From the NCBI GenBank assembly GCA_035533095.1, contig DATLUM010000071.1, positions 62,001 to 126,000 of the forward strand: 64,000 nucleotides of DNA, read 5' to 3'. Numbering within the stretch: the stretch's first letter is position 1; the number at the start of each line of letters is the position of its first letter. Shown here one piece after another: positions 37,047 to 62,364 of the stretch. The position numbers were made by a program, and so were the translations under genes. This stretch comes from Acidimicrobiales bacterium (GTDB lineage Bacteria > Actinomycetota > Acidimicrobiia > Acidimicrobiales > Palsa-688). The notes beneath the pieces are model-generated. The model searched no databases. It saw nothing but the letters and a program-made list of their open reading frames with translations, and was not told the origin of the DNA.

Positions 37047-38891
37047 GTGGGCATCGTCGACGAGGACATCGCAAAGGTCCGGGCGGCTACGGACTTCGTT
37101 GCGCTCGCCGGCGAGCATCTTGCCCTTCGCCGGGTCGGCACCCGGTGGGTGGGGTTGTGCCCGTTCCACGCGGAGAACTCCCCGTCGTTTTCGGTCAACT
37201 CGGAGCTCGGGCTCTACTACTGCTTCGGATGCGGCGCCAAGGGAGACGTGATCACCTTCGTCCGCGAGATCGAACACCTCGATTTCGTGGAAGCGGTGGA
37301 GAAGCTCGCAGGCCGCTCCGGTATCACGCTGCGATACGACGATCAGGGCGGCGGGCGCAGCGGCGACCAGCTGCGGCGTGCACGGATCTACGAGACGCTC
37401 GAGAAGGCGATCGAGTGGTACCACCAGCGGCTGCTGTCGGGATCGGACAGCTCGCGAGCGCGCCACTATCTGCGGGCCGAGCGAGGATACGACGGCGACC
37501 TGGTCCGGCGCTTCCGCATCGGCTGGGCGCCCGACGGATGGGACACCCTGGTGAAGAACCTCGGGGTGCCGAAGAAGGACCTCGTCGACGCCGGGCTGGC
37601 GACCGTCGACTCGTCCGGCCGGCACACCGACTTCTTCCGCGCACGGATCCTCTTCCCCATCTTCGAACCGGCCGGAAAGCCGATCGGGGCCGGCGGGCGG
37701 ATGCTTCCCGGAGGGCGTCCACCCAAGTACAAGAACACGAGCGGTACAGCGGTCTACGACAAGAGCCGGGTCCTCTACGGGTTGAACTGGGCGAAGAAGG
37801 ACGTGGTGGACAAGGGACGGGTCGTCGTCTGTGAGGGATACACCGACGTGATCGGCCTGCACGAGGCGGGCGTCGGCGAGGCCGTGGCGACCTGCGGGAC
37901 AGCTCTGGCCGACGGCCACATCCGCCTGCTCACCAACTTCGCCCGCAAGATCGTCCTCGCCTACGACGCCGACGTGGCCGGGCAGGCTGCAGCCGAGCGG
38001 TTCTACGAGTGGGAGGACCGGTTCCAGGTCGACATCCGGGTGGCAGCCATCCCCGCCGGCGCTGACCCCGCCGACCTGGCCCGTTCGGATCCCGAGGCGC
38101 TGCTCAAAGCCGTAGAGGAGGCCCGGCCATTCCTCGGCTTCAGGATCGAACGCCTCCTCGCGCGCTCGGACCTGTCATCCCCGGAGTCGCGCGTGCGCGC
38201 CGCCGGCGAAGCGATGGCGCTCATACGCGAGCACCCGAGCGAGCTTGTCAGAGACCAGTACCTGATGACCGTCGCCGATCGATGCCGTATCGACCCGAAC
38301 CGGCTGAGGAACATGTCCTCGCAGCGACCCGTCGCGGACCATCGCGAGGCAGATCGGGAGCACGTGCAGCGTCCTGCACCGGTGACGGTGAGTGGTGCCG
38401 AACTGGAGGCCCTCCGGTTGGCTGTTCACCGGCCCGAAGAGGTCGCGTCACAGCTGGAAGCAGTGCTGTTCGAGCATCCGATCGCTCGTTCCGCGTTCGA
38501 CGTGCTGTCGAGCGCATCCACGCTGCACGAGGCGATCGACGCGGCCGATCCGCAGACGGCGGATCTCCTTCAACGGCTCGCGGTGGAGGACAGCGAAGCC
38601 GCGGCCGGCGACGTGATGACTCGGCTCGTCGAACGGGCCGGCCAGCGTGCCCTGAAGGAGTTGCAGGCGCAGATGCGCCAGGTCGACGCGTCGGCCCAGG
38701 CCGATTTCGCCCCGACGATCGCGTGGCTGAAGCTGGCCTTGGAGTCATTGCGCCCAGAGGACGGGAAACTCGCCGACGCGACCGACGCCCAGAAGGGGTT
38801 GGTACGCTGGCTGTCGGCCTGGGAGCAGACAGGTACTGCGACAGGTATCGCGCAAGCCGGTACCAATACCCAGTCGGAGGCGAGCAGTTGA
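37047..38891 (+). CDS. dnaG: DNA primase
   Basis: A 614-residue DnaG that makes RNA primers at the fork. The CHC2 zinc domain reads [16 protein letters not shown] then [11 protein letters not shown]; the Toprim core has [25 protein letters not shown] and [14 protein letters not shown]. The C-terminal third is the helical DnaB-binding region. The start is GTG at 37047. The stop overlaps the next start (TTGA), linking it to the sigma factor as in the classical dnaG-rpoD macromolecular synthesis operon. Confidence 0.97.
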
Positions 38892-40168
38892 TCGAGGGGG
38901 GGACGACACCTTTCACGCCGGAAGGCGAGCTGACGGGGCATTTCGTCGCTCTCCTCCTGGCTGGCAAGGAGCGCGGCTTCCTGACCCCCGACGATCTGAT
39001 GCCGCTCATGGAATCCGTGGAATTGACGCCGGACGTGATCACCGCCGCCGTCGGGAGGGTTAAGGCCGCGGGCATCGAGTGGCGAGACGACAGCTATCTC
39101 GAAGTAACTGCTGAGCTCAACGGCGAGGTTGCCGAGGATTCCTCGCTCGCGCTGGCGCGCATTGCCGGCGCGCCGTTGCTTCGGGCTCGTACCAGGGGCA
39201 CCACACGAGCCGAGGTGGACCTCGGGCCTGGCGGAACCGGGAGCAGTTCCGACCCGGTGCGCATGTACCTGAAGGAGATCGGGAAGGTATCGCTGCTCAC
39301 TGCGGCGGAGGAGGTGATCCTCGCTCGTTGCGTCGAGCAGGGTTTCCTCGCCACGCAGCGCTTGGCCGCCTGCGAGGAGGAGACTGCTCTTCTACGCGAC
39401 CGCGAGGGAATCGGGCGCGACGAGCGGCTGCGCCGCGAGGGTCTTGTCGCGAAGCGGATCCTCGTAGAGGCGAACCTCCGCCTTGTCGTATCCATCGCCA
39501 AGCGCTACCGCAACCGCGGCATGGCCTTCCTGGACCTCATCCAGGAGGGGAACCTCGGCTTGATGCGCGCGGTCGACAAGTTCGACTACACGAAGGGCTT
39601 CAAGTTCTCCACCTACGCCACGTGGTGGATCCGGCAGGCGATCACCCGCGCGATCGCCGACCAAGCCCGGACGATCCGCATCCCGGTTCACATGGTCGAC
39701 ACGATCAACAAGGTGATGCGAGCGCAACGGCAGTTGCTCCAGGACCTCGGAAGGGAACCGACTGTCGAGGAGGTTGCCGAGAGAGCCGAGATGACGCCGG
39801 AGAAGGTCCGTGACATCCTGCGGGTGAGCCAGGAGACGGTGTCGCTCGAGCAGCCGATGGGCGAGGACGACTTCAGCCTTTCCGACCTCATCGAGGACGA
39901 GGCCGCGGTGGCGCCGGCGGAGGCGGCCGCGCGTGCCATGCTCAACCAGGCGGTCACCGAGGCGCTGTCAGAGCTGTCCGACCGTGAAAGGCGGGTGGTC
40001 AGGCTCCGCTTCGGGCTCGACGACGGCCAGATGCGGACCCTCGAGGAGGTCGGGCGGGAGTTCGGTGTCACCAGGGAACGGATCCGCCAGATCGAGTCGA
40101 AGACGCTCGCCAAGCTGCGCCATCCGATGCACAGCGGGCATCTTCGTGACTACCTGCACGACGAGTAG
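38888..40168 (+). CDS. rpoD: Primary RNA polymerase sigma factor
   Basis: A 426-residue sigma-70 protein. Regions: a short N-terminal domain (about 1-110) with the region 1.1-like [20 protein letters not shown], region 1.2 [17 protein letters not shown], region 2 with [20 protein letters not shown] and [20 protein letters not shown] and [13 protein letters not shown], region 3, and region 4 ending [20 protein letters not shown]. The start is TTG at 38888, supported by CGGAGG about 8 bp upstream and by overlap with the dnaG stop. The longer open frame from 38282 lies inside dnaG. It is the likely housekeeping sigma factor. Confidence 0.94.
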
Positions 40169-40194
40169 ATCACCGGCTGACTTTGTTGTCTCGG

Positions 40195-40270
40195 TGGCTC
40201 CGGGGGAGAGACTCGAACTCTCAACCAGCGGCTTAACAGGCCGTCGCTCTGCCGATTGAGCTACCCCGGA
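40195..40270 (-). tRNA. tRNA-Asn (GTT)
   Basis: The reverse strand gives a 76-nt cloverleaf: acceptor TCCGGGG/CCCCGGA, D arm GCTC...GAGC, anticodon loop CTGTTAA (anticodon GTT), T arm GAGAG-TTCGAGT-CTCTC, discriminator G and an encoded CCA. The anticodon stem ACGGC/GCCGC has one A-C mismatch at its top pair. The 5' end overlaps the 3' end of the upstream HTH gene by 10 nt. Confidence 0.95.
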
Positions 40271-40911
40271 CCGACTTGCGAGGATAGCAGAGCATCAATC
40301 AGCCCAATGATCGCCCGGTGGGTGTCGCTGCTGCAGTATCGGACGTAGACGCAACCATGCTCGTGCTTCGTCTGGCGGTATCCGGAGTTGGGCACGGCTC
40401 GGTATGGCTTGCTGAACTGGGAGGGTGGTATTTCGGTTACCTCGGACCAATATTGCTCAGCCGCTCCGAGGTCCAAACCCTGGTGGAGATAGACGCGGGC
40501 CCTCAGTCTGGTCTCATCGATCTGGAAGAACGCTCGTAGCCAGGAGCAGAAGAACTGCACCAGACGGAAGTCAGTGTTGGCGAAAACGACGGCGCCGTCC
40601 CGCTTGGCGCCCTCGCCGGCGTACAACGCCGCACCCGCCGCCAGGAATGCCTGTTCGTTCAGCTCTCCGAGGCGTAGGACGCCCTCCTGGCGGAGTTGCT
40701 CGATCTCATCTGCCTTCCGGCGCTGCAGGACGTTCGGACCACGCCGGCGCGCGGTGCGTCGGGGATTCGGCTGGAACGCCACGTCCCGTACCCACAGCGA
40801 TACCGAGGACTTGGAAACACCGAGCTTTTCGGCGATGTCGGTGAGCGTCCACGACTGTGCCCGAAGGCTGCGAGCCGCCTCCTGCTCTGATAGCTTGCCA
40901 CGGTATCCCAT
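40261..40911 (-). CDS. HTH protein with LAGLIDADG-like C-terminal region
   Basis: A 216-residue protein. The N-terminal helix-turn-helix reads WTLTDIAEKLGVSKSSVSLW, then a basic linker RRTARRRGPNVLQRRK. The C-terminal part FLAAGAALYAGEGAKRDGAV, FANTDFRLVQFFCSWLRAFF and RARVYLHQGLDL resembles the LAGLIDADG fold as also used in WhiA, but I see no certain nuclease residues. Related HTH proteins are, from memory, frequent in Acidimicrobiia; function is unknown. The stop TAG (40261-40263) is bases 8-10 of tRNA-Asn, so the two are transcribed together. The start is ATG 40911. Confidence 0.7.
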   Translation of the reverse strand: MGYRGKLSEQEAARSLRAQSWTLTDIAEKLGVSKSSVSLWVRDVAFQPNPRRTARRRGPNVLQRRKADEIEQLRQEGVLRLGELNEQAFLAAGAALYAGEGAKRDGAVVFANTDFRLVQFFCSWLRAFFQIDETRLRARVYLHQGLDLGAAEQYWSEVTEIPPSQFSKPYRAVPNSGYRQTKHEHGCVYVRYCSSDTHRAIIGLIDALLSSQVGPG

Positions 40912-40968: not shown

Positions 40969-43900
40969 TCACCTGAAGACGAGGTCGGCTGGCAGCGGGA
41001 GCGAGTACAGGAAGCCCTGTACCTGGGTGCAGCCGAGCTCTCGCAGCATCCTCTCCTGGTCCTTTGTTTCGACGCCTTCCGCGACCGTCGCCAGGCCGAG
41101 GGCGTCGGCGAGGCTGATCACTGCCCGTACGATCGCCTCGTCCTCCGAGCTGATCCCGAGGCCCCGCACGAAGGTCTGGTCGATCTTGAGGAAGTCGAGC
41201 GGGAGCCGCTTGAGATAGACGAGAGACGAGTACCCGGTGCCGAAGTCGTCGATGCCGATCCGGCAGCCCACCGCCCGGAGCTGTTCGAGGCACGGCCTGA
41301 TCGGTTCCATGATGTCGATGAGGGCCACCTCGGTGATCTCCAGAGCGATCGAGCCGGGGTCGACTCCGGTCTCCTCGATGGTCGCGGCCACGCTGTCGGC
41401 GAACCCGGCAGTGACGAGCTGGCGCGGCGAGACGTTGACGCCGATGCTCAGCGCGGGATTGCTGCTCGCCTCGCGCAGCTTGCCCAACGCCCGGCACGAT
41501 TCGCGGAGGACCCACGCGCCGAGCGGGACGATGAGACCTGTTTCTTCGGCGACGGTGATGAAGCTCGCCGGCGACACCAGGCCCTCGCGCCCGTCGTAGC
41601 GGATCAGCGATTCCGCTCCCACGGGGTTGCCCGTCTCCATCTCGTAGATCGGCTGGAAGTGGAGGACCATCCGCTCGGTGTCCATCGCGTCACGAAGGTC
41701 CCGCTCGGCCCGCTCGCGCCCCTGCGCCCGCCGGCGGAGGTGTTCGCCGAACACCTCCCACCGCGCACGGCCTTTGTCCTTGGCGCGGTACAGGGCGGTG
41801 TCGGCGTCACGCAGCAGCGAGGGCCCGTCGTCGTCGAGGCCCGCGATGGTGATCCCGATGCTGGTAGTCACCCTCACATTGACGTCCGGGCTCACCTGTA
41901 TCGGCTGGTGCAGGATCTCCTCCACCCGGGTGGCTATGCCCCGGACCTCGTCGCGGTCTTCCAGATCGTCGACGACGAGCACGAACTCGTCTCCCCCGAG
42001 GCGGGCGAGGATGTCCTCCCCGCGTGTGACGCTGCGCAACCTGGCGGCGATCTCCTCGAGGACTCGATCGCCGGCGCCGTGTCCGAGGGAGTCATTGATG
42101 ACCTTGAAGTTGTCGAGGTCGAGGTAGAAGACGGCGAGATGTGTGCCGCGCCTTCGCGCCCGTGCCAATGAGTGGGGGAGGCGCTCGAGGAAGAGCCAAC
42201 GGTTGTCCAGCCGCGTCAAGGGGTCCGTGAACGCCTGGTGCCTGAGCGCTTCCTCGGCTTGGCGCTTCAAGGTGATATCGACCAGCTGGGCGATCGCGTA
42301 ATCGGGCTCGCCTTCCTCGTCGCGGATGAGCCCCAGGTGCAAATTGACCCAGATCCATCTGCCGTCGGCATGGGCGTATCGCTTCTCGACCTGGTAGACG
42401 TCCGCCTCCTTGCGCTCAAAGCGACGCCTCGCCTCCAGATCCGAGCGGTAGTCGTCCGGATGCGTCAGGTCTTTGACCGTCTTGGTCTTCAACTCCTCAC
42501 GGGTGTAGCCGAGCATTCGAGCCATCGCCTCGTTGACCCGGGTGTAATGGCCGAGGCTCTCAGGGCGCTGGCCTATGAGCGCCATCCCGATCGGAGCGTT
42601 GTCGAACGCAAGCCGGAACTCCTCGGCAGCCTGCGCGAGGCGCTGCTCCGCTTGGCGCCGGTCTGTGACGTCGTGCATGTTCACGACGATCGCTTCGACT
42701 GCCCTGTCGTCGAGACGGTTGGTGTAGGAGATCTCGATGTGCCGCCAACTTCCGTCCGTGTGGAGCATCCGGCATTCGGTGGAACCGCGCCCGCCGGGCT
42801 TCTGCGCGATGCGAAGGAAGAGTTGGGTCAACCCGTCCAGGTCGTCGGGGTGTATGAGGCTGCGGCTCCGCCCGCCGACAACTTCGTCAGGCGCGGTGCC
42901 GAGAAGGTTCTCGATGGAGGGGCTCGCGTAGCGCATGACGCCGGTCGCGTCAGCCAGGACGGTGACGTCCGACGAGTGCTCGATGAGGGCCCGGAAACGC
43001 TCCGCGTTACCGGAAACGTGTTCCAAGGTGGCGCCTGCGAGCGTCGCGACGAAGGTTGCGAGCTGCCTCTCGGTCTCTCCGAAGAGCCCGCCGACCTCCT
43101 TGTGGGTCGCGTAGAAGCAGGCGACGACCTTGCCGTCACATTGGATAGGCGCGCACAGCAGCGACCTCACGCCCGCGAGTACGAGGCTGTCGGTCGCGTC
43201 AGCTTCCGACGCCGGCTGCCTGGTGACGACACTCCCGGTCGTGACCGCCTCCGCTACCGCTGACGCCGATATCCCTTCTACGTGCTCGCCGGAAACCGTT
43301 ACGAGTTCCTGCGTACCGAGCTCGCCGATCTCCAGCACCTGGCACCGATCGGCTCCGAGGAGGTCTCTTGCTGCGTTCTCCACCGCGTTGAACACCGCTT
43401 TATTGCTTGTCGCAGCGGCGAGGACCCTTCCAGTCTCGAGCAGGTTGTCGAACCTCGCGGCGAGGGAGAGGGTGAGGCCTGCCTCGGTTCGGCGGGCACT
43501 CGTAGGAGACTCGATCTGCTCGAGCTCTCGTTCGGCCCAGTGAAGCTCCGCAGCGGCGCCCGGGCTGCCCAGCGCGGTGGCGATCCTCGCGAGCTCGAGG
43601 CTGCTGCGCGTCTCCTCCCAACCTGCTCCCTGCTCCGACGCGATCTCGACGGAACGACGCAGCAACCGTCGAGCTCGCGCCATCCGCCCGGCGCTTGCAT
43701 AACTCAACGCGAGCTCCCGAAGGGCGTGCGGGGCGTTGTTTCGATAGGCGCGCGAGATCCGTACCGCCTGCCTGGCCGTACGGCGTTGGCGCTTCCGGAG
43801 CTCACCTAGGTGCGGGTTGTTCGCGTCGGCTGCCTCCACCTCGGCGCGGATCGCCGTCGCGAGCCAAGGGATAACCGGAACCACATACTCCTGCCTGAGA

Positions 43901-46900
43901 CCCGCCTGTTTCACCCCCGCCCACGCCTCTTCGAGGAGCGCTACTGCCGCGGCGGCCTGACCCGAGCCCAAGAGCCGCAACGCTTCCGCAAGGAGGATCT
44001 CGGTGGTGGTGTGGCGGTCCTCGTTGTGACGGGCCAGCGCGCGGGCGGTTGCCTCCACAGGAATATGGCCGTCGGTCGCACGTGACCAGGCGGAGAGTGC
44101 GATCCCCGCGGAGGACATGTCCCCGATGCTCTCCGCGTCGTAGTGCACCTCCGATGCGAGACGAGCAGCTTCGCCGTATCGGCCCAGGCGGTAGTGGCAG
44201 AACGCGATGTGCCACCTTGCGGTGTTCATCTCCCACTGGTCCCCGGTGAGGGCGAGGAGTTGCACGGCTTCCCGGCAGGCGTTCAGCGCCTCCTCGTACC
44301 GCGAGGCAGCGTAGAGGACCACGCCGTAGAAACCGAGCGACTGGCCCTGTCCCCAGATGTCTCCCAGTTCCCGTCGTAGTTCAAGTGACTTCTTCGCGTA
44401 CGCGATTCCCCGTGAGTACCAGGGGATCATGGTCATCACCGGCGCGTGCTCGGACCATGCCTGCGCGAGCTCGAGGGAGGGGCCGAATCGCTCGGCGATG
44501 TTCATCTCGCGTATGTGCGTCCACAGGCAGGGAACGCGACCTTTGCGGAACCAGTACGCATAGGCGAGCCGGCTGTAGAAGCGCATCGCCAAACGGTCCG
44601 TGTCCGTGGGCGGGGGGCGCCGCCGCACGGCCCACGGAGCGACCGTGTGGACGAACTGCACCAGTAGTTCCCAAGTCGCCGCGACCAGGTATACCAGTGC
44701 GTTCCTCGGCACCCAGCGCCCGAGCCCCCGCAAGGCCAGTTCCAACTGCGCGCACGCAGCAACCTGGTCGCCGCGCCGGAACGCGACCTCTCCCAGCTTC
44801 CCCTCGATGGCCGCCCGGCTCATGGGGTCACGAGCGCGCTTCGCGGCCTGGGACAGGCACTCCTCGGCTTCCGAGTATCGACCGGCTAGCGCCAGGACCT
44901 CACCGAGCCCTTCCGCGACTAGCCCTTCAGTGCCACTGTCTTGCGCACCTCTCGCCGCCATGCGGTAATACGTCTCAGCGCTGTCGAGGGCGTGGCGGGC
45001 GCGCGACTGCTCTGCGGCAGCGAGCGCATGGGGTAGAGCCTCCTCCGGCCGTCCTGCCGCATCGAGGTGGTAGGCGAGGTCGTACGGGGTCCCCGACCCT
45101 TCGAGCAGCCGGGCAGCTCCCAGGTGCAAGGCGGCGCTGGTGTCTTCGCCGAGACTTTCGAGGACGGCCTCTCTCAGCTTGTCGTGGAGGAACCTGGCTC
45201 GCCGGCGGTCCTCGTCGATCCACAGGATCCGCCGTTGCCTCACCTCGTCGACAGAACGCACGACGTCGTCGGGGCTGATCGCGCTCAAGGTCACAGCAAG
45301 GTCGAGATCGAAGCTCTTGCCCAGCACCGCGCCAGCGGCCAGGAGGTGCCGAGCCGGCCCCGGCAGCAGGTCCAACCTCCGTGCCAGCACAAGTGCGGCG
45401 CGCCGGGAGGTCTCGACCGCCTCGAGGAGCGGGACGTTGACGTCCCACCGGTCTCCGTCGTGGACAAGAGCAGAGCTCTCGACCATGCCCCGCAGAACCG
45501 CTTGGGCCATGAACGCGTTGCCTTCGCTCAGGCGCAGCACCGCCGCGGCCGCAGCTTCGGGTAGCGGCCCGGCCATCGACGACACGAGGTCCCGGACCTC
45601 GCGCTCGCGGAGCGCCGACAACTGCACGTTGGCCTTCGCGTTAGCGGATCGAAGCGGGCTCGAGTCGGGAACCTCGTCCGAGCGGAACGCAGAGATCACG
45701 AGCACCCAGCGATGGGTGTTGCGAGGCCGGGCAAATCGCGCGAGCACTTCCGCCGCGCTGGACTGCGCCCACTGGCAATCGTCGAGTACCACCAGTGCTG
45801 GCTCTTCCTTGTGGCCCGCCGCGTCCAGGAGCGTCGCGAGCGCCTCTATCGACCGCGCGCGCCCGTACTCTTCCGGGAGCAGCGCCACCGCGCTGCCCTC
45901 TAGAAGCGGTTCGAGAGCGGGAACAGCCGATAGCAGGGCTTCGGCGAAATCACCTATCGCTTCGCGGACCGACGCGAACCGCTCCGGGTCGGACACCGCT
46001 CGGGCGGCAATGCCGGCTCCGACCCCGTCGAACAGCTGAAAGGGTCTCTGGGCCTCGCGATCCTCACCCTGTCCGTGAAAGACCGTGAAACCGAGCTCGC
46101 TCGCGTGCCTTACCAGTTCGTCGAGGAGCCGGGTCTTGCCGGCCCCCGACTCGCCCTCGACCATGACGAGCGAACCCTTGCCTGCTGCTGCATCCAGCAA
46201 CGCCGTGCGAAGGGCTGCCATCTCGGCGGAACGCCCGACGAACCCCGGTTCGGCCAGGGAGCCCCTCCGGTCGTGCAGGCCGATGACGATCCGCGGGTCT
46301 TCGACGCCGTTACGCCTCGCCCTCTGGATCGTCTCGACATCGGCTAGCACGGCGGCTGCAGACTGGTAGCGGTCGTCAGGGTCGGTCCGGCAGAGACGGT
46401 CGACGAGCGCGCACAACGCCGCCGGCGCGTCGCGAGGTCTGTGCTCCGACAGGGCGGCTGCACCGGCCAGCTTCTGGCGCAGCACCGCGCCGACGTCCCG
46501 CCCGTCGAACACGGGGTGACCGGTGAGGCATTCGTGCAAGGTGGCACCGAGGGCGTAGAGGTCCGAGCGCGCGTCCACAGGCACGTCGAGCAGCCCCGCC
46601 TGTTCCGGCGAGCAGTAGAGGGCGGTGCCGACGAGGGTTTCGCGAACCGACGGGTCGAGGGTGACGCTTCGCGACAACCCGAAGTCGATGAGCTTGGCCG
46701 TATTCGGTGAAGGATCCCCGTTGTCGGATACCGCCTGGACGACGATGTTCCCGGGTTTTACGTCGCGGTGCACGACACCCGCTTCATGCGCGCTGACCAG
46801 AGCCGACAGGACGCCGTGCGCGACGGCCAGCATCTCGTCGGCGCTCAGGGGGCCCCTCGCCAAGCGCTGAGCCAGGGTCTCGCCGCCGTAGTACGGCTGC

Positions 46901-47214
46901 GCCAGCCAGATCCAGCCGCCGTCCGTCCCGTGGTCGAGCAGGTAAGGGTTGCCATCAGGGTCGGATAGGCCTGCCAGCACCTCGGCTTCGTGGGCGAGCC
47001 GGATCCCCTGCGCCGCGCTGAGGGAGGACACCGGGGCGCGCTTCACGACCACCGGCTCGTCACCCCCGGGCGAGCCGGCGAGGAACGTCTCCACGCCGGA
47101 GCTGCTCTTGAGGAGGCGCGTTAGCCGGTAACGCCCGGCGAGAAGCTCGCCGCGCATCGCCGTGTCCATAGAGTCCACGGAGTCTTGTTCGGAATCTGAT
47201 GGAGCGTTCGGCAC
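40969..47214 (-). CDS. Giant Ser/Thr kinase-AAA-TPR-GAF-PAS-PAS-GGDEF-EAL signalling protein
   Basis: A 2081-residue soluble protein. The kinase domain (about 28-297) is intact: VVVKR (Lys58), VVHRDVKPGN (HRD 149-151), KLIDFGLSR (DFG 177-179). An AAA/MalT-like ATPase follows (Walker A GESGAGKT, 354-361; VVLDDCQWAQ), then a long TPR-like region to about 1230, a GAF domain (about 1260-1400), and two PAS domains with PAC parts (about 1405-1650). GGDEF is intact (RLGGDEF at 1740-1744) with the inhibitory site RGED five residues before it. EAL (from about 1849) reads ESL instead of EAL, but ITE, IDDFGTGYSS, LKID and AEGVET are present. It should make and/or break c-di-GMP under control of kinase, nucleotide and ligand inputs. 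Its start is GTG 47214; an ATG at residue 16 is possible. Confidence 0.93.
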   Translation of the reverse strand: MPNAPSDSEQDSVDSMDTAMRGELLAGRYRLTRLLKSSSGVETFLAGSPGGDEPVVVKRAPVSSLSAAQGIRLAHEAEVLAGLSDPDGNPYLLDHGTDGGWIWLAQPYYGGETLAQRLARGPLSADEMLAVAHGVLSALVSAHEAGVVHRDVKPGNIVVQAVSDNGDPSPNTAKLIDFGLSRSVTLDPSVRETLVGTALYCSPEQAGLLDVPVDARSDLYALGATLHECLTGHPVFDGRDVGAVLRQKLAGAAALSEHRPRDAPAALCALVDRLCRTDPDDRYQSAAAVLADVETIQRARRNGVEDPRIVIGLHDRRGSLAEPGFVGRSAEMAALRTALLDAAAGKGSLVMVEGESGAGKTRLLDELVRHASELGFTVFHGQGEDREAQRPFQLFDGVGAGIAARAVSDPERFASVREAIGDFAEALLSAVPALEPLLEGSAVALLPEEYGRARSIEALATLLDAAGHKEEPALVVLDDCQWAQSSAAEVLARFARPRNTHRWVLVISAFRSDEVPDSSPLRSANAKANVQLSALREREVRDLVSSMAGPLPEAAAAAVLRLSEGNAFMAQAVLRGMVESSALVHDGDRWDVNVPLLEAVETSRRAALVLARRLDLLPGPARHLLAAGAVLGKSFDLDLAVTLSAISPDDVVRSVDEVRQRRILWIDEDRRRARFLHDKLREAVLESLGEDTSAALHLGAARLLEGSGTPYDLAYHLDAAGRPEEALPHALAAAEQSRARHALDSAETYYRMAARGAQDSGTEGLVAEGLGEVLALAGRYSEAEECLSQAAKRARDPMSRAAIEGKLGEVAFRRGDQVAACAQLELALRGLGRWVPRNALVYLVAATWELLVQFVHTVAPWAVRRRPPPTDTDRLAMRFYSRLAYAYWFRKGRVPCLWTHIREMNIAERFGPSLELAQAWSEHAPVMTMIPWYSRGIAYAKKSLELRRELGDIWGQGQSLGFYGVVLYAASRYEEALNACREAVQLLALTGDQWEMNTARWHIAFCHYRLGRYGEAARLASEVHYDAESIGDMSSAGIALSAWSRATDGHIPVEATARALARHNEDRHTTTEILLAEALRLLGSGQAAAAVALLEEAWAGVKQAGLRQEYVVPVIPWLATAIRAEVEAADANNPHLGELRKRQRRTARQAVRISRAYRNNAPHALRELALSYASAGRMARARRLLRRSVEIASEQGAGWEETRSSLELARIATALGSPGAAAELHWAERELEQIESPTSARRTEAGLTLSLAARFDNLLETGRVLAAATSNKAVFNAVENAARDLLGADRCQVLEIGELGTQELVTVSGEHVEGISASAVAEAVTTGSVVTRQPASEADATDSLVLAGVRSLLCAPIQCDGKVVACFYATHKEVGGLFGETERQLATFVATLAGATLEHVSGNAERFRALIEHSSDVTVLADATGVMRYASPSIENLLGTAPDEVVGGRSRSLIHPDDLDGLTQLFLRIAQKPGGRGSTECRMLHTDGSWRHIEISYTNRLDDRAVEAIVVNMHDVTDRRQAEQRLAQAAEEFRLAFDNAPIGMALIGQRPESLGHYTRVNEAMARMLGYTREELKTKTVKDLTHPDDYRSDLEARRRFERKEADVYQVEKRYAHADGRWIWVNLHLGLIRDEEGEPDYAIAQLVDITLKRQAEEALRHQAFTDPLTRLDNRWLFLERLPHSLARARRRGTHLAVFYLDLDNFKVINDSLGHGAGDRVLEEIAARLRSVTRGEDILARLGGDEFVLVVDDLEDRDEVRGIATRVEEILHQPIQVSPDVNVRVTTSIGITIAGLDDDGPSLLRDADTALYRAKDKGRARWEVFGEHLRRRAQGRERAERDLRDAMDTERMVLHFQPIYEMETGNPVGAESLIRYDGREGLVSPASFITVAEETGLIVPLGAWVLRESCRALGKLREASSNPALSIGVNVSPRQLVTAGFADSVAATIEETGVDPGSIALEITEVALIDIMEPIRPCLEQLRAVGCRIGIDDFGTGYSSLVYLKRLPLDFLKIDQTFVRGLGISSEDEAIVRAVISLADALGLATVAEGVETKDQERMLRELGCTQVQGFLYSLPLPADLVFR

Positions 47215-47449: not shown

Positions 47450-48671
47450 GTGCCCTGACCTGAATCGTTCGCGTCCACCACTTTGGAGGTGGGGGTCGCG
47501 CAGACTCGGTCATGTCCAAACCTGTCCGAGTCCGAAGACTCACAGACATCGAGGGCCGTGAGCTACAGCGAATCGTCCGTCGTGGCAGCGGTAAGAGCGA
47601 TAACTCGGTGGTGAAGTGGCGTCGAGCGCTGGTGGTGTTGGCCTCCGCTGGCGGCAACGACGTGGCGGTGATCGCCCGGATGGTGCAGACCTCGCCGGAT
47701 CGGGTGCGGGAGATGATCCACCGTTTCAACGAAGAGGTGATGAAAAGTCTGGACCCCGCGTGGGCGGGTGGCCGACCCCGCCGGATCACGACGACTGAAC
47801 GCGAGCTGATCGTCTCGTCGGCCAAAGCCCGCCCGGCCACGCTGGGCCAGCCCTTCACTCGCTGGAGTATCCGCAAGCTGCAGGCCTACTTGGCCGTCCA
47901 CAAAAAGGTGGTCATCTCCCGGGAGCGGCTGCGCCAGATCCTGGCCGAGGAACAGATCACTTTTCAGGCCACCAAGACCTGGAAGGAATCGCCAGACCCT
48001 CAGCGCGAGGAGAAGCTGGACCGTATCGAGGAGGTCCTGGAAAATCACCGGGACCGCACCTTCGCGTTCGACGAGTTCGGACCTTTGGCAATCAAGCCCG
48101 AGGGCGGGCACGCCTGGGCAGGGCGGGGCCGTCCGCAGCGGCTGCGGGCCAACTATCACAAGCCACATGGGACCCGGCAGTTCTTCGCCTGGTACTCGGT
48201 CGGTGACGACCACCTCTATGGCCGGATCGAACGGCGGAAGGGATCCGCGCCGACCCTGCGGGCGCTGCAGGCGATCCGTCGGCTGAGTCCCGACGGCGAG
48301 CCGGTCTATGTGATCTTGGACAACTTGAACCACCACAAAGGCCGCGAGATCCGCCGGTGGTGCGCCGAGAACAACGTCGAGCTTTGCTTCACACCCACCT
48401 ACGCGTCATGGGCCAACCCGATCGAGGCGCACTTCGGGCCGCTACGGGAGTTCGTCATCGCCAACAGCGACTACCCCGACCACCCCAGGTTGACCAAGGC
48501 CATCCGCCGCTACCTCTCCTGGCGCAACGCCAACACCCGCGACCCTGAACTCCTCGCTCTCGAACGAAAGCATCGAGCCAAGATCCGAGGCGAAGCCCGA
48601 CGGCGCTGGGGACAGCCCAAGCACCGAGCCGCATGATCAGCCAAACGCGCGAACCTTTGTGGTCAGGGCAC
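47450..48671 (+). mobile_element. IS630-family insertion sequence, complete
   Basis: A 1222-bp element. Ends at 47450-47473 and 48648-48671 are inverted repeats of 24 bp: both begin GTGCCCTGACC, differ over six bases, and share GTTCGCG. TA dinucleotides flank it at 47448-47449 and 48672-48673, the target duplication of IS630/Tc1-type transposition. The single transposase gene fills it. It is inserted 2 bp beyond the stop of the ECF sigma gene, in the gap before the giant kinase gene, and interrupts no reading frame. Confidence 0.93.
47512..48636 (+). CDS. IS630-family DDE transposase
   Basis: A 374-residue transposase. The N-terminal HTH parts include NDVAVIARMVQTSPDRVREM and VVISRERLRQILAEEQI. 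The catalytic DDE triad is seen in FAFDEFGPLAI (first Asp), YVILDNLNHHKG (second Asp) and WANPIEAHFGPLREF (Glu). It ends in a basic tail. The frame is intact and both element ends are present, so it may still be active. ATG at 47512 begins 62 bp inside the left end. Confidence 0.95.
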   Translation: MSKPVRVRRLTDIEGRELQRIVRRGSGKSDNSVVKWRRALVVLASAGGNDVAVIARMVQTSPDRVREMIHRFNEEVMKSLDPAWAGGRPRRITTTERELIVSSAKARPATLGQPFTRWSIRKLQAYLAVHKKVVISRERLRQILAEEQITFQATKTWKESPDPQREEKLDRIEEVLENHRDRTFAFDEFGPLAIKPEGGHAWAGRGRPQRLRANYHKPHGTRQFFAWYSVGDDHLYGRIERRKGSAPTLRALQAIRRLSPDGEPVYVILDNLNHHKGREIRRWCAENNVELCFTPTYASWANPIEAHFGPLREFVIANSDYPDHPRLTKAIRRYLSWRNANTRDPELLALERKHRAKIRGEARRRWGQPKHRAA

Positions 48672-61911: not shown

Positions 61912-62364
61912 TCAGGGAGACCCGGTTCGCTCCGCTCCCTTGGCGAGGTCGGCCGACCATCGCTTGAGAACCCAGCGCACGACTAGAACCCAAAACCAAC
62001 CAGTCACGCCGTGGGTGCCGAATCGAGATTCCCAGGTAATCCGGGTTCCTCCGCCAGGGAGCGCTTTGAGGTAAACGTCGGAGCGGTAGTCGTCCAACGG
62101 CTGGCCTGAGAGCAAGGTGTAGCCGAAGTGGGTTGGAGCCTCGAAGGCCACGACCTCTTCGCGATTGCATTTGGTCGGCTTGGCCGGATCGACACCGAGC
62201 ACACGGATGGCGCCAACCCCGTCAGCAGTAGGGCTGCCGTCTCGCTCAAGGCGAGCCATCTTGTGGCGTGACCACGTGGGCCACTCCCCGACGGTGCTCA
62301 GCAGCTGCCAGACGATCTCGATCGGGGCGGAGCTCTCCGCCTCCGCCCGGGCGAGGTGACTCAT
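61912..62364 (-). CDS. SRPBCC family protein
   Basis: A 150-residue START-like domain protein: SSAPIEIVWQLLSTVGEWPT and WSRHKMARLERDG, then YRSDVYLKALPGGGTRITWE and a C-terminal helix WFWVLVVRWVLKRWSADLAK. Such proteins bind hydrophobic ligands or aromatic intermediates. The ATG start at 62364 overlaps the TetR stop by 4 bp (ATGA), so both are on one transcript controlled by the adjacent operator. The ligand is unknown. Confidence 0.85.
   Translation of the reverse strand: MSHLARAEAESSAPIEIVWQLLSTVGEWPTWSRHKMARLERDGSPTADGVGAIRVLGVDPAKPTKCNREEVVAFEAPTHFGYTLLSGQPLDDYRSDVYLKALPGGGTRITWESRFGTHGVTGWFWVLVVRWVLKRWSADLAKGAERTGSP

Follow-up and report, generated by a model that had tools for sequence, protein, structure and literature searches.

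The 64,000-nucleotide stretch analyzed here, termed the window (positions 62,001 to 126,000 of the forward strand of contig DATLUM010000071.1, Acidimicrobiales bacterium, assembly GCA_035533095.1), contains a gene for a 2081-residue protein that joins a Hanks-type Ser/Thr kinase, a STAND module, a GAF domain and two PAS domains to a GGDEF diguanylate cyclase and an EAL phosphodiesterase domain. The first 1400 residues fall within a widespread family of "dual kinases" that normally end in a histidine kinase, and the novelty of the protein lies in the exchange of its output. We consider it probable that the protein is a cytosolic one-protein switch, in which a kinase-STAND-GAF sensor platform is coupled to a PAS-PAS-GGDEF-EAL part that replaces the C-terminal histidine kinase.

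An earlier, sequence-only reading of this DNA had described a single 2081-residue frame with kinase, ATPase, TPR, GAF, two PAS, GGDEF and EAL domains, and both open reading frame and Pfam analyses agree with that description. The strand was omitted from that account: the gene lies on the minus strand, and the plus strand over positions 40969-47214 is closed by many stops. The frame remains open for 13 codons upstream of the GTG start, and in-frame ATG codons near residues 16-20 constitute alternative starts. The Pfam matches, each exceeding its curated cut-off, comprise Pkinase (residues 53-287, E = 3e-27), AAA_16 (325-506, 1e-20), TPR_12, GAF (1275-1397), PAS (1405-1516), PAS_3 (1559-1641), GGDEF (1661-1817, 3e-42; 144.6 bits against a cut-off of 23.8) and EAL (1838-2073, 7e-67; 225.6 bits against 31.3).

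To place the protein among its relatives, 84,980 species genomes were scanned with two search peptides, yielding 113 relatives of which the best 80 were kept, so that the counts given here are lower bounds. Most relatives, found in the Planctomycetota, Myxococcota and Actinomycetota, align to residues ~10-1410 of the window protein, with identities of about 36-55% along residues ~10-1400, and the order of Hanks-type kinase, nucleotide-binding domain, TPR and GAF is common to the window protein and at least 70 proteins. Of 79 C-termini that could be read, those of the window and two further genomes included, HisKA and/or HATPase domains occur in 69, together with varied receiver and Hpt domains; nine have GGDEF, all of them in Actinomycetota, and one gave no match. 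Since Pfam finds neither HisKA nor HATPase in the window protein and finds GGDEF and EAL instead, the protein is a relative of the dual kinases and not one of them.

The complete order from kinase to EAL recurs in five other Actinomycetota genomes (L047, L049, L054, L106 and L109), which rejects the possibility that the architecture is unique to the window. These relatives place the window most likely in the Acidimicrobiia. The closest relative (L048, also numbered L042, in genome G005), assigned to the same family as the window, stops at GGDEF and lacks EAL; its identity to the window protein is 50% in the kinase, 52% in the NOD, 58% in the TPR region, 50% in GAF, 44% over PAS-PAS and 51% in GGDEF. 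One of the complete proteins, L049, has an additional receiver domain through which its output may also take His-Asp input. Whole-genome samples show how scarce the platform is (E ≤ 1e-80): of 395 other genomes sampled from the phylum, six have it, and of 394 others sampled from the class, three; among the six platform-bearing genomes of the phylum sample, one ends in GGDEF-EAL and the others in histidine kinases or cut ends. The sequence-only claim that a joining of kinase and GGDEF-EAL is rare in actinobacteria therefore stands as to rarity, although the joining is no isolated novelty. No GGDEF-EAL protein was found at 1e-40 in the metagenome-assembled genomes of two actinobacterial neighbors with histidine kinase ends, L071 and L052 (G429 and G430), and the type of output may follow the host's use of c-di-GMP (cyclic di-GMP).

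Phylogenetic inference on the platform revealed that the GGDEF-bearing proteins do not form one clade (approximately unbiased test, P = 6e-9). This value derives from a careful tree in which one locus (L077) was left unlabelled, a few proteins with unreadable ends having been labelled as histidine kinases by default in a first tree. The Nocardioides pair joins a histidine kinase protein of Jatrophihabitans (support 100/100) and the Solirubrobacteraceae protein joins one of the Thermoleophilia (95/93), while the six GGDEF proteins on the Acidimicrobiia side could, by themselves, form a clade (P = 0.33). The GGDEF-EAL modules do not form one clade on their own tree either (P = 1e-36), where the Solirubrobacteraceae module clusters with paralogs encoded in the same genome (support 100). 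The Nocardioides modules group with three Acidimicrobiia modules (92) and one stand-alone Nocardioides protein. The window module stands apart from these Nocardioides and Acidimicrobiia fusion modules, but grouping it with them is only mildly rejected (P = 0.017), these groups having been named after the trees were seen. A single origin of all GGDEF fusions is thus rejected on both trees. On these sequence comparisons, a safe reading is that the platform has exchanged its output three times or more, and that GGDEF-EAL was recruited at least twice and probably three times.

The sequence-only reading had recognized the central part of the protein as an AAA ATPase followed by TPR-like repeats. 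Both elements are found, but structural modeling indicates that residues 306-1245 are more precisely a MalT/PknK-type STAND sensor module than a generic AAA and TPR pair, given the model matches and the presence of Walker A (GESGAGKT, 354-361) and Walker B (VVLDDCQWA, 475-483) motifs. The AlphaFold model of this region, built from 36 aligned sequences, has a pLDDT of 88.5 and a pTM of 0.82, and Foldseek places it closest, among PDB entries, to the crystal structure 6mfv, which is that of a STAND protein carrying a TPR sensor (E 1e-11). VIA-align matched the model to MalT domain III (1hz4; Z 24.5, root-mean-square deviation (rmsd) 3.4, 311 residues aligned), 6mfv (Z 20.1, rmsd 10.6, 600 aligned), the maltose-system regulator structure 8bob (Z 18.8, rmsd 4.8, 362 aligned) and Apaf-1 (3sfz; Z 17.2, rmsd 6.2, 393 aligned). 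PknK has been named a STAND kinase, and STAND activation is described as inducer-driven assembly (PMC4381067). The identification of a STAND sensor hence shifts the likely mechanism from the ATP-dependent signaling to c-di-GMP that had been suggested for this protein to inducer-triggered oligomerization.

The catalytic motifs reported in the sequence-only reading could all be located. The kinase presents K58, E76, H149-R150-D151, K153, N156 and the DFG motif at 177-179. The GGDEF motif is exact at 1740-1744, with an RxxD inhibitory site (I-site; RGED, 1731-1734) five residues upstream. In the EAL domain the first motif reads ESL (1868-1870), and E1868, N1927, E1959, D1989, D1990, K2010, E2046 and Q2066 are all kept. 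Among 60 compared GGDEF-EAL sequences the first motif is EAL in 51, ESL, ELL, EGL and EVL in two each and EAV in one; because every catalytic residue is retained, ESL is a mild variant that by itself gives no sign of EAL inactivity. The solved chains best matching the GGDEF-EAL part are MucR (5m3c) and MorA (4rnh). The genome of the window also encodes three other GGDEF-EAL frames of 615-889 residues within 7 kb (contig C37 of G000, 37.7-44.3 kb).

GGDEF domains need to dimerize. Together with the biology of STAND proteins (PMC4381067), this requirement suggests a most likely mechanism, the sign of whose output could go either way. At rest, the STAND module would be closed and the protein monomeric or GGDEF-inhibited. 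Binding of an inducer (protein, peptide or metabolite) to the TPR sensor would open the NOD and exchange ADP for ATP, whereupon the ATP-bound platforms would oligomerize and the GAF-PAS stalk would pass the change to GGDEF-EAL, with the GGDEF domains dimerizing and c-di-GMP being made. The I-site would limit this output by feedback, and the EAL domain would hydrolyze c-di-GMP in the other state, providing turnover. The kinase probably phosphorylates its own protein or partners, tuning the switch in cis or in trans. Since GGDEF-EAL replaces the histidine kinase end, the STAND and phosphorylation input that feeds His-Asp relays in the relatives would here be read out as c-di-GMP. We regard as tentative, and rather doubtful, the more specific proposal that one polypeptide turns both STAND sensing of an inducer and Ser/Thr phosphorylation directly into c-di-GMP, through a kinase that phosphorylates the PAS-GGDEF-EAL part of its own chain, and that actinobacteria rebuilt such a converter convergently by output swaps on the dual-kinase platform.

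Several observations weigh against the switch as proposed. The full-length Foldseek TM values against 6mfv are low (0.31/0.42), because TPR superhelices curve differently; the separate modules match better. Many of the high-Z VIA-align matches are unrelated TPR proteins. In the kinase, the Gly-loop (LLKSSSGVETFLA) is degenerate and lacks the glycines of the canonical loop, and the sister kinase in L048 carries the substitutions K58R, E76D and N156S; given both, kinase activity may be dispensable. Finally, the sequence does not tell whether GGDEF or EAL activity prevails. There is appreciable, if minority, room for a protein that is mainly a c-di-GMP phosphodiesterase, in which GGDEF would serve as a GTP-binding regulator of EAL and activation would lower c-di-GMP. 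The intact set of EAL catalytic residues is consistent with such a role, as are the NCBIfam equivalog matches of the C-terminal half, which are mostly to phosphodiesterases (DibA, tlr1612-type and DosP) and all fall below their curated cut-offs. The exact GGDEF motif and I-site argue against it, and the closest platform relative, L048, has GGDEF and no EAL, which suggests that the cyclase output is the part retained.

The Gly-loop and the L048 substitutions also bear on whether the kinase acts as an enzyme, and they qualify its earlier description as active-looking, which holds for the catalytic residues. All six of K58, E76, D151, K153, N156 and D177 are kept in 44 of 71 aligned family kinases, including the window protein and all five other complete GGDEF-EAL fusions; the remaining 27 lack the full set, among them L048 and many Planctomycetota proteins. 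In view of this division, the window kinase is catalytically plausible by its residues, while the kinase is not universally constrained across the family. The 27 incomplete kinases, the glycine-poor loop and the state of the nearest relative would fit a domain that is in effect a pseudokinase, one that binds ATP and has a regulatory role in the STAND switch, with phosphorylation playing no part in c-di-GMP control. We deem this possible but unlikely, as the residues are retained in every complete fusion and in 44 family members. Judged by sequence, a pseudokinase state is frequent within the family ending in histidine kinases; Planctomycetota loci such as L078, L092, L098 and L121 carry platform kinases with a broken HRD motif or VAIK Lys. 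In L048, apparent decay of the kinase is seen while GGDEF is kept.

Dual Ser/Thr-His kinases have been reported from cyanobacteria and other organisms (PMC1262709, PMC2176072). Over residues ~10-1400, the related proteins of several phyla that end in HisKA-HATPase are roughly 40-50% identical to the window protein. Like the window protein, these proteins (dual kinases, cbSTKIII or HstK) present an N-terminal Ser/Thr kinase, GAF (and PAS) and then a C-terminal output, but they have a HisKA/HATPase end where the window protein has GGDEF-EAL; compared by description only, the cyanobacterial dual kinases are "KD" kinases, whereas the window kinase has HRD. Mycobacterium tuberculosis PknK and MalT share with the window protein a MalT-type STAND NOD and helical sensor, following the kinase, a likeness of fold that was tested by the model. 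However, PknK is described without the GAF, PAS or c-di-GMP domains (PMC4381067) that the window protein has, and MalT, unlike the window protein, is a transcription factor. A link between Ser/Thr kinases and c-di-GMP was drawn in 2005 from an 1826-residue Clostridium thermocellum protein with a kinase, six TPRs and GGDEF (PMC1262709). Compared by description only, it resembles the window protein in that a single chain holds a Ser/Thr kinase, TPR and, at the C-terminus, GGDEF, and differs in that EAL, GAF and PAS were not reported. PAS-GGDEF-EAL proteins of the MucR, MorA and DosP type resemble the C-terminal half but have no kinase or STAND part, and the window protein falls short of the NCBIfam equivalog cut-offs. 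The TOMM system kinase/cyclase fusion protein (TIGR03903) also joins a Ser/Thr kinase to a nucleotide cyclase, and its model matches the kinase part of the window protein, but the window protein reaches 173 bits where the cut-off is 706, and the type of cyclase differs. In the literature searched, which covered few subscription journals, we found no description of the kinase-STAND-GAF-PAS-GGDEF-EAL order, of its recurrence in Actinomycetota or of repeated output exchange, and no paper on a kinase/GGDEF-EAL fusion in Actinobacteria. A shared platform with two interchangeable outputs, His-Asp in most lineages and c-di-GMP in some actinobacteria, amounts to a natural domain-swap experiment. It lends itself to testing how STAND switches drive dimerization-activated enzymes, and may represent a direct connection from Ser/Thr kinases to c-di-GMP. 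Since the architecture is present in cultured Nocardioides of two species, it is open to bench study.

Table 1. Features of the window and related loci (positions refer to the window for window features and to the locus itself for L049; MAG, metagenome-assembled genome).
Feature or locus	Position	Strand	Residues	Remarks
Whole gene	40969..47214	-	2081 aa	GTG start; single open frame, zero internal stops
Hanks-type Ser/Thr kinase domain	46315..47148	-	~23-300	Pfam and motif check
Predicted STAND module	43480..46299	-	306-1245	NOD, then TPR superhelix like MalT domain III; Pfam, motifs and model
GAF domain	43024..43470	-	1249-1397	Pfam
PAS domain 1	42667..43002	-	1405-1516	Pfam
PAS domain 2	42271..42624	-	~1531-1648	
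GGDEF diguanylate cyclase domain	41752..42246	-	1657-1821	Pfam and motif check
EAL phosphodiesterase domain	40996..41703	-	1838-2073	Pfam and motif check
Helix-turn-helix protein	40261-40911	-	216 aa	Between tRNA-Asn and the gene; gene's own strand
dnaG - rpoD - tRNA-Asn block	37047-40270			Adjoins the gene
IS630-like transposase	47512-48636	+		DDE_3, HTH_29/32; immediately upstream of the gene
L047				Acidimicrobiaceae MAG; full order to EAL
L049	7980-14264			Acidimicrobiia MAG; full order to EAL, extra receiver domain after EAL
L054				Nocardioides silvaticus (isolate); full order to EAL
L109				N. stalactiti (isolate); full order to EAL
L106				Solirubrobacteraceae MAG; full order to EAL
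L058				Architecture cut at contig edge within the kinase
L169 (G559)				Architecture split over two overlapping frames
L048	425-6199			Acidimicrobiaceae label; closest relative, ends at GGDEF

The pairing of rpoD and tRNA-Asn beside the gene is kept in five members of the family, with the orientation of the tRNA varying between genomes, and none of these five showed a platform gene. For the IS630-like transposase, the rest of the genome holds just two relatives, both distant (26-28%). These surroundings fit a patchy gain or loss of the gene and give no proof of transfer; a check of GC content for horizontal import revealed no anomaly, and a scan for promoters and terminators returned nothing above chance. 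The location beside a tRNA and a transposase, the appearance of Avs3 (8dgc) among the Foldseek matches and hits to PADLOC kinase models might suggest an anti-phage, Avs-like STAND protein, one that would detect a phage protein and respond by way of a nucleotide signal. This is very improbable: the PADLOC matches are generic and confined to the kinase domain, the relatives have a regulatory output in their histidine kinase ends, the module as a whole most resembles MalT-type folds, and no defence genes are present among the flanking genes examined. The Pfam scan detected no Avs-type nuclease or protease effector domain in the protein. An artefact considered in the sequence-only reading, in which assembly or a frameshift would have fused a dual-kinase gene to a separate GGDEF-EAL gene, is scarcely credible and was rejected: the source genome is a draft of 142 contigs, but the gene lies in the interior of a 126-kb contig with even GC along its length, the same order is complete in five independent assemblies, two of them from isolates, and L048 aligns across the whole join from GAF through PAS-PAS to GGDEF.

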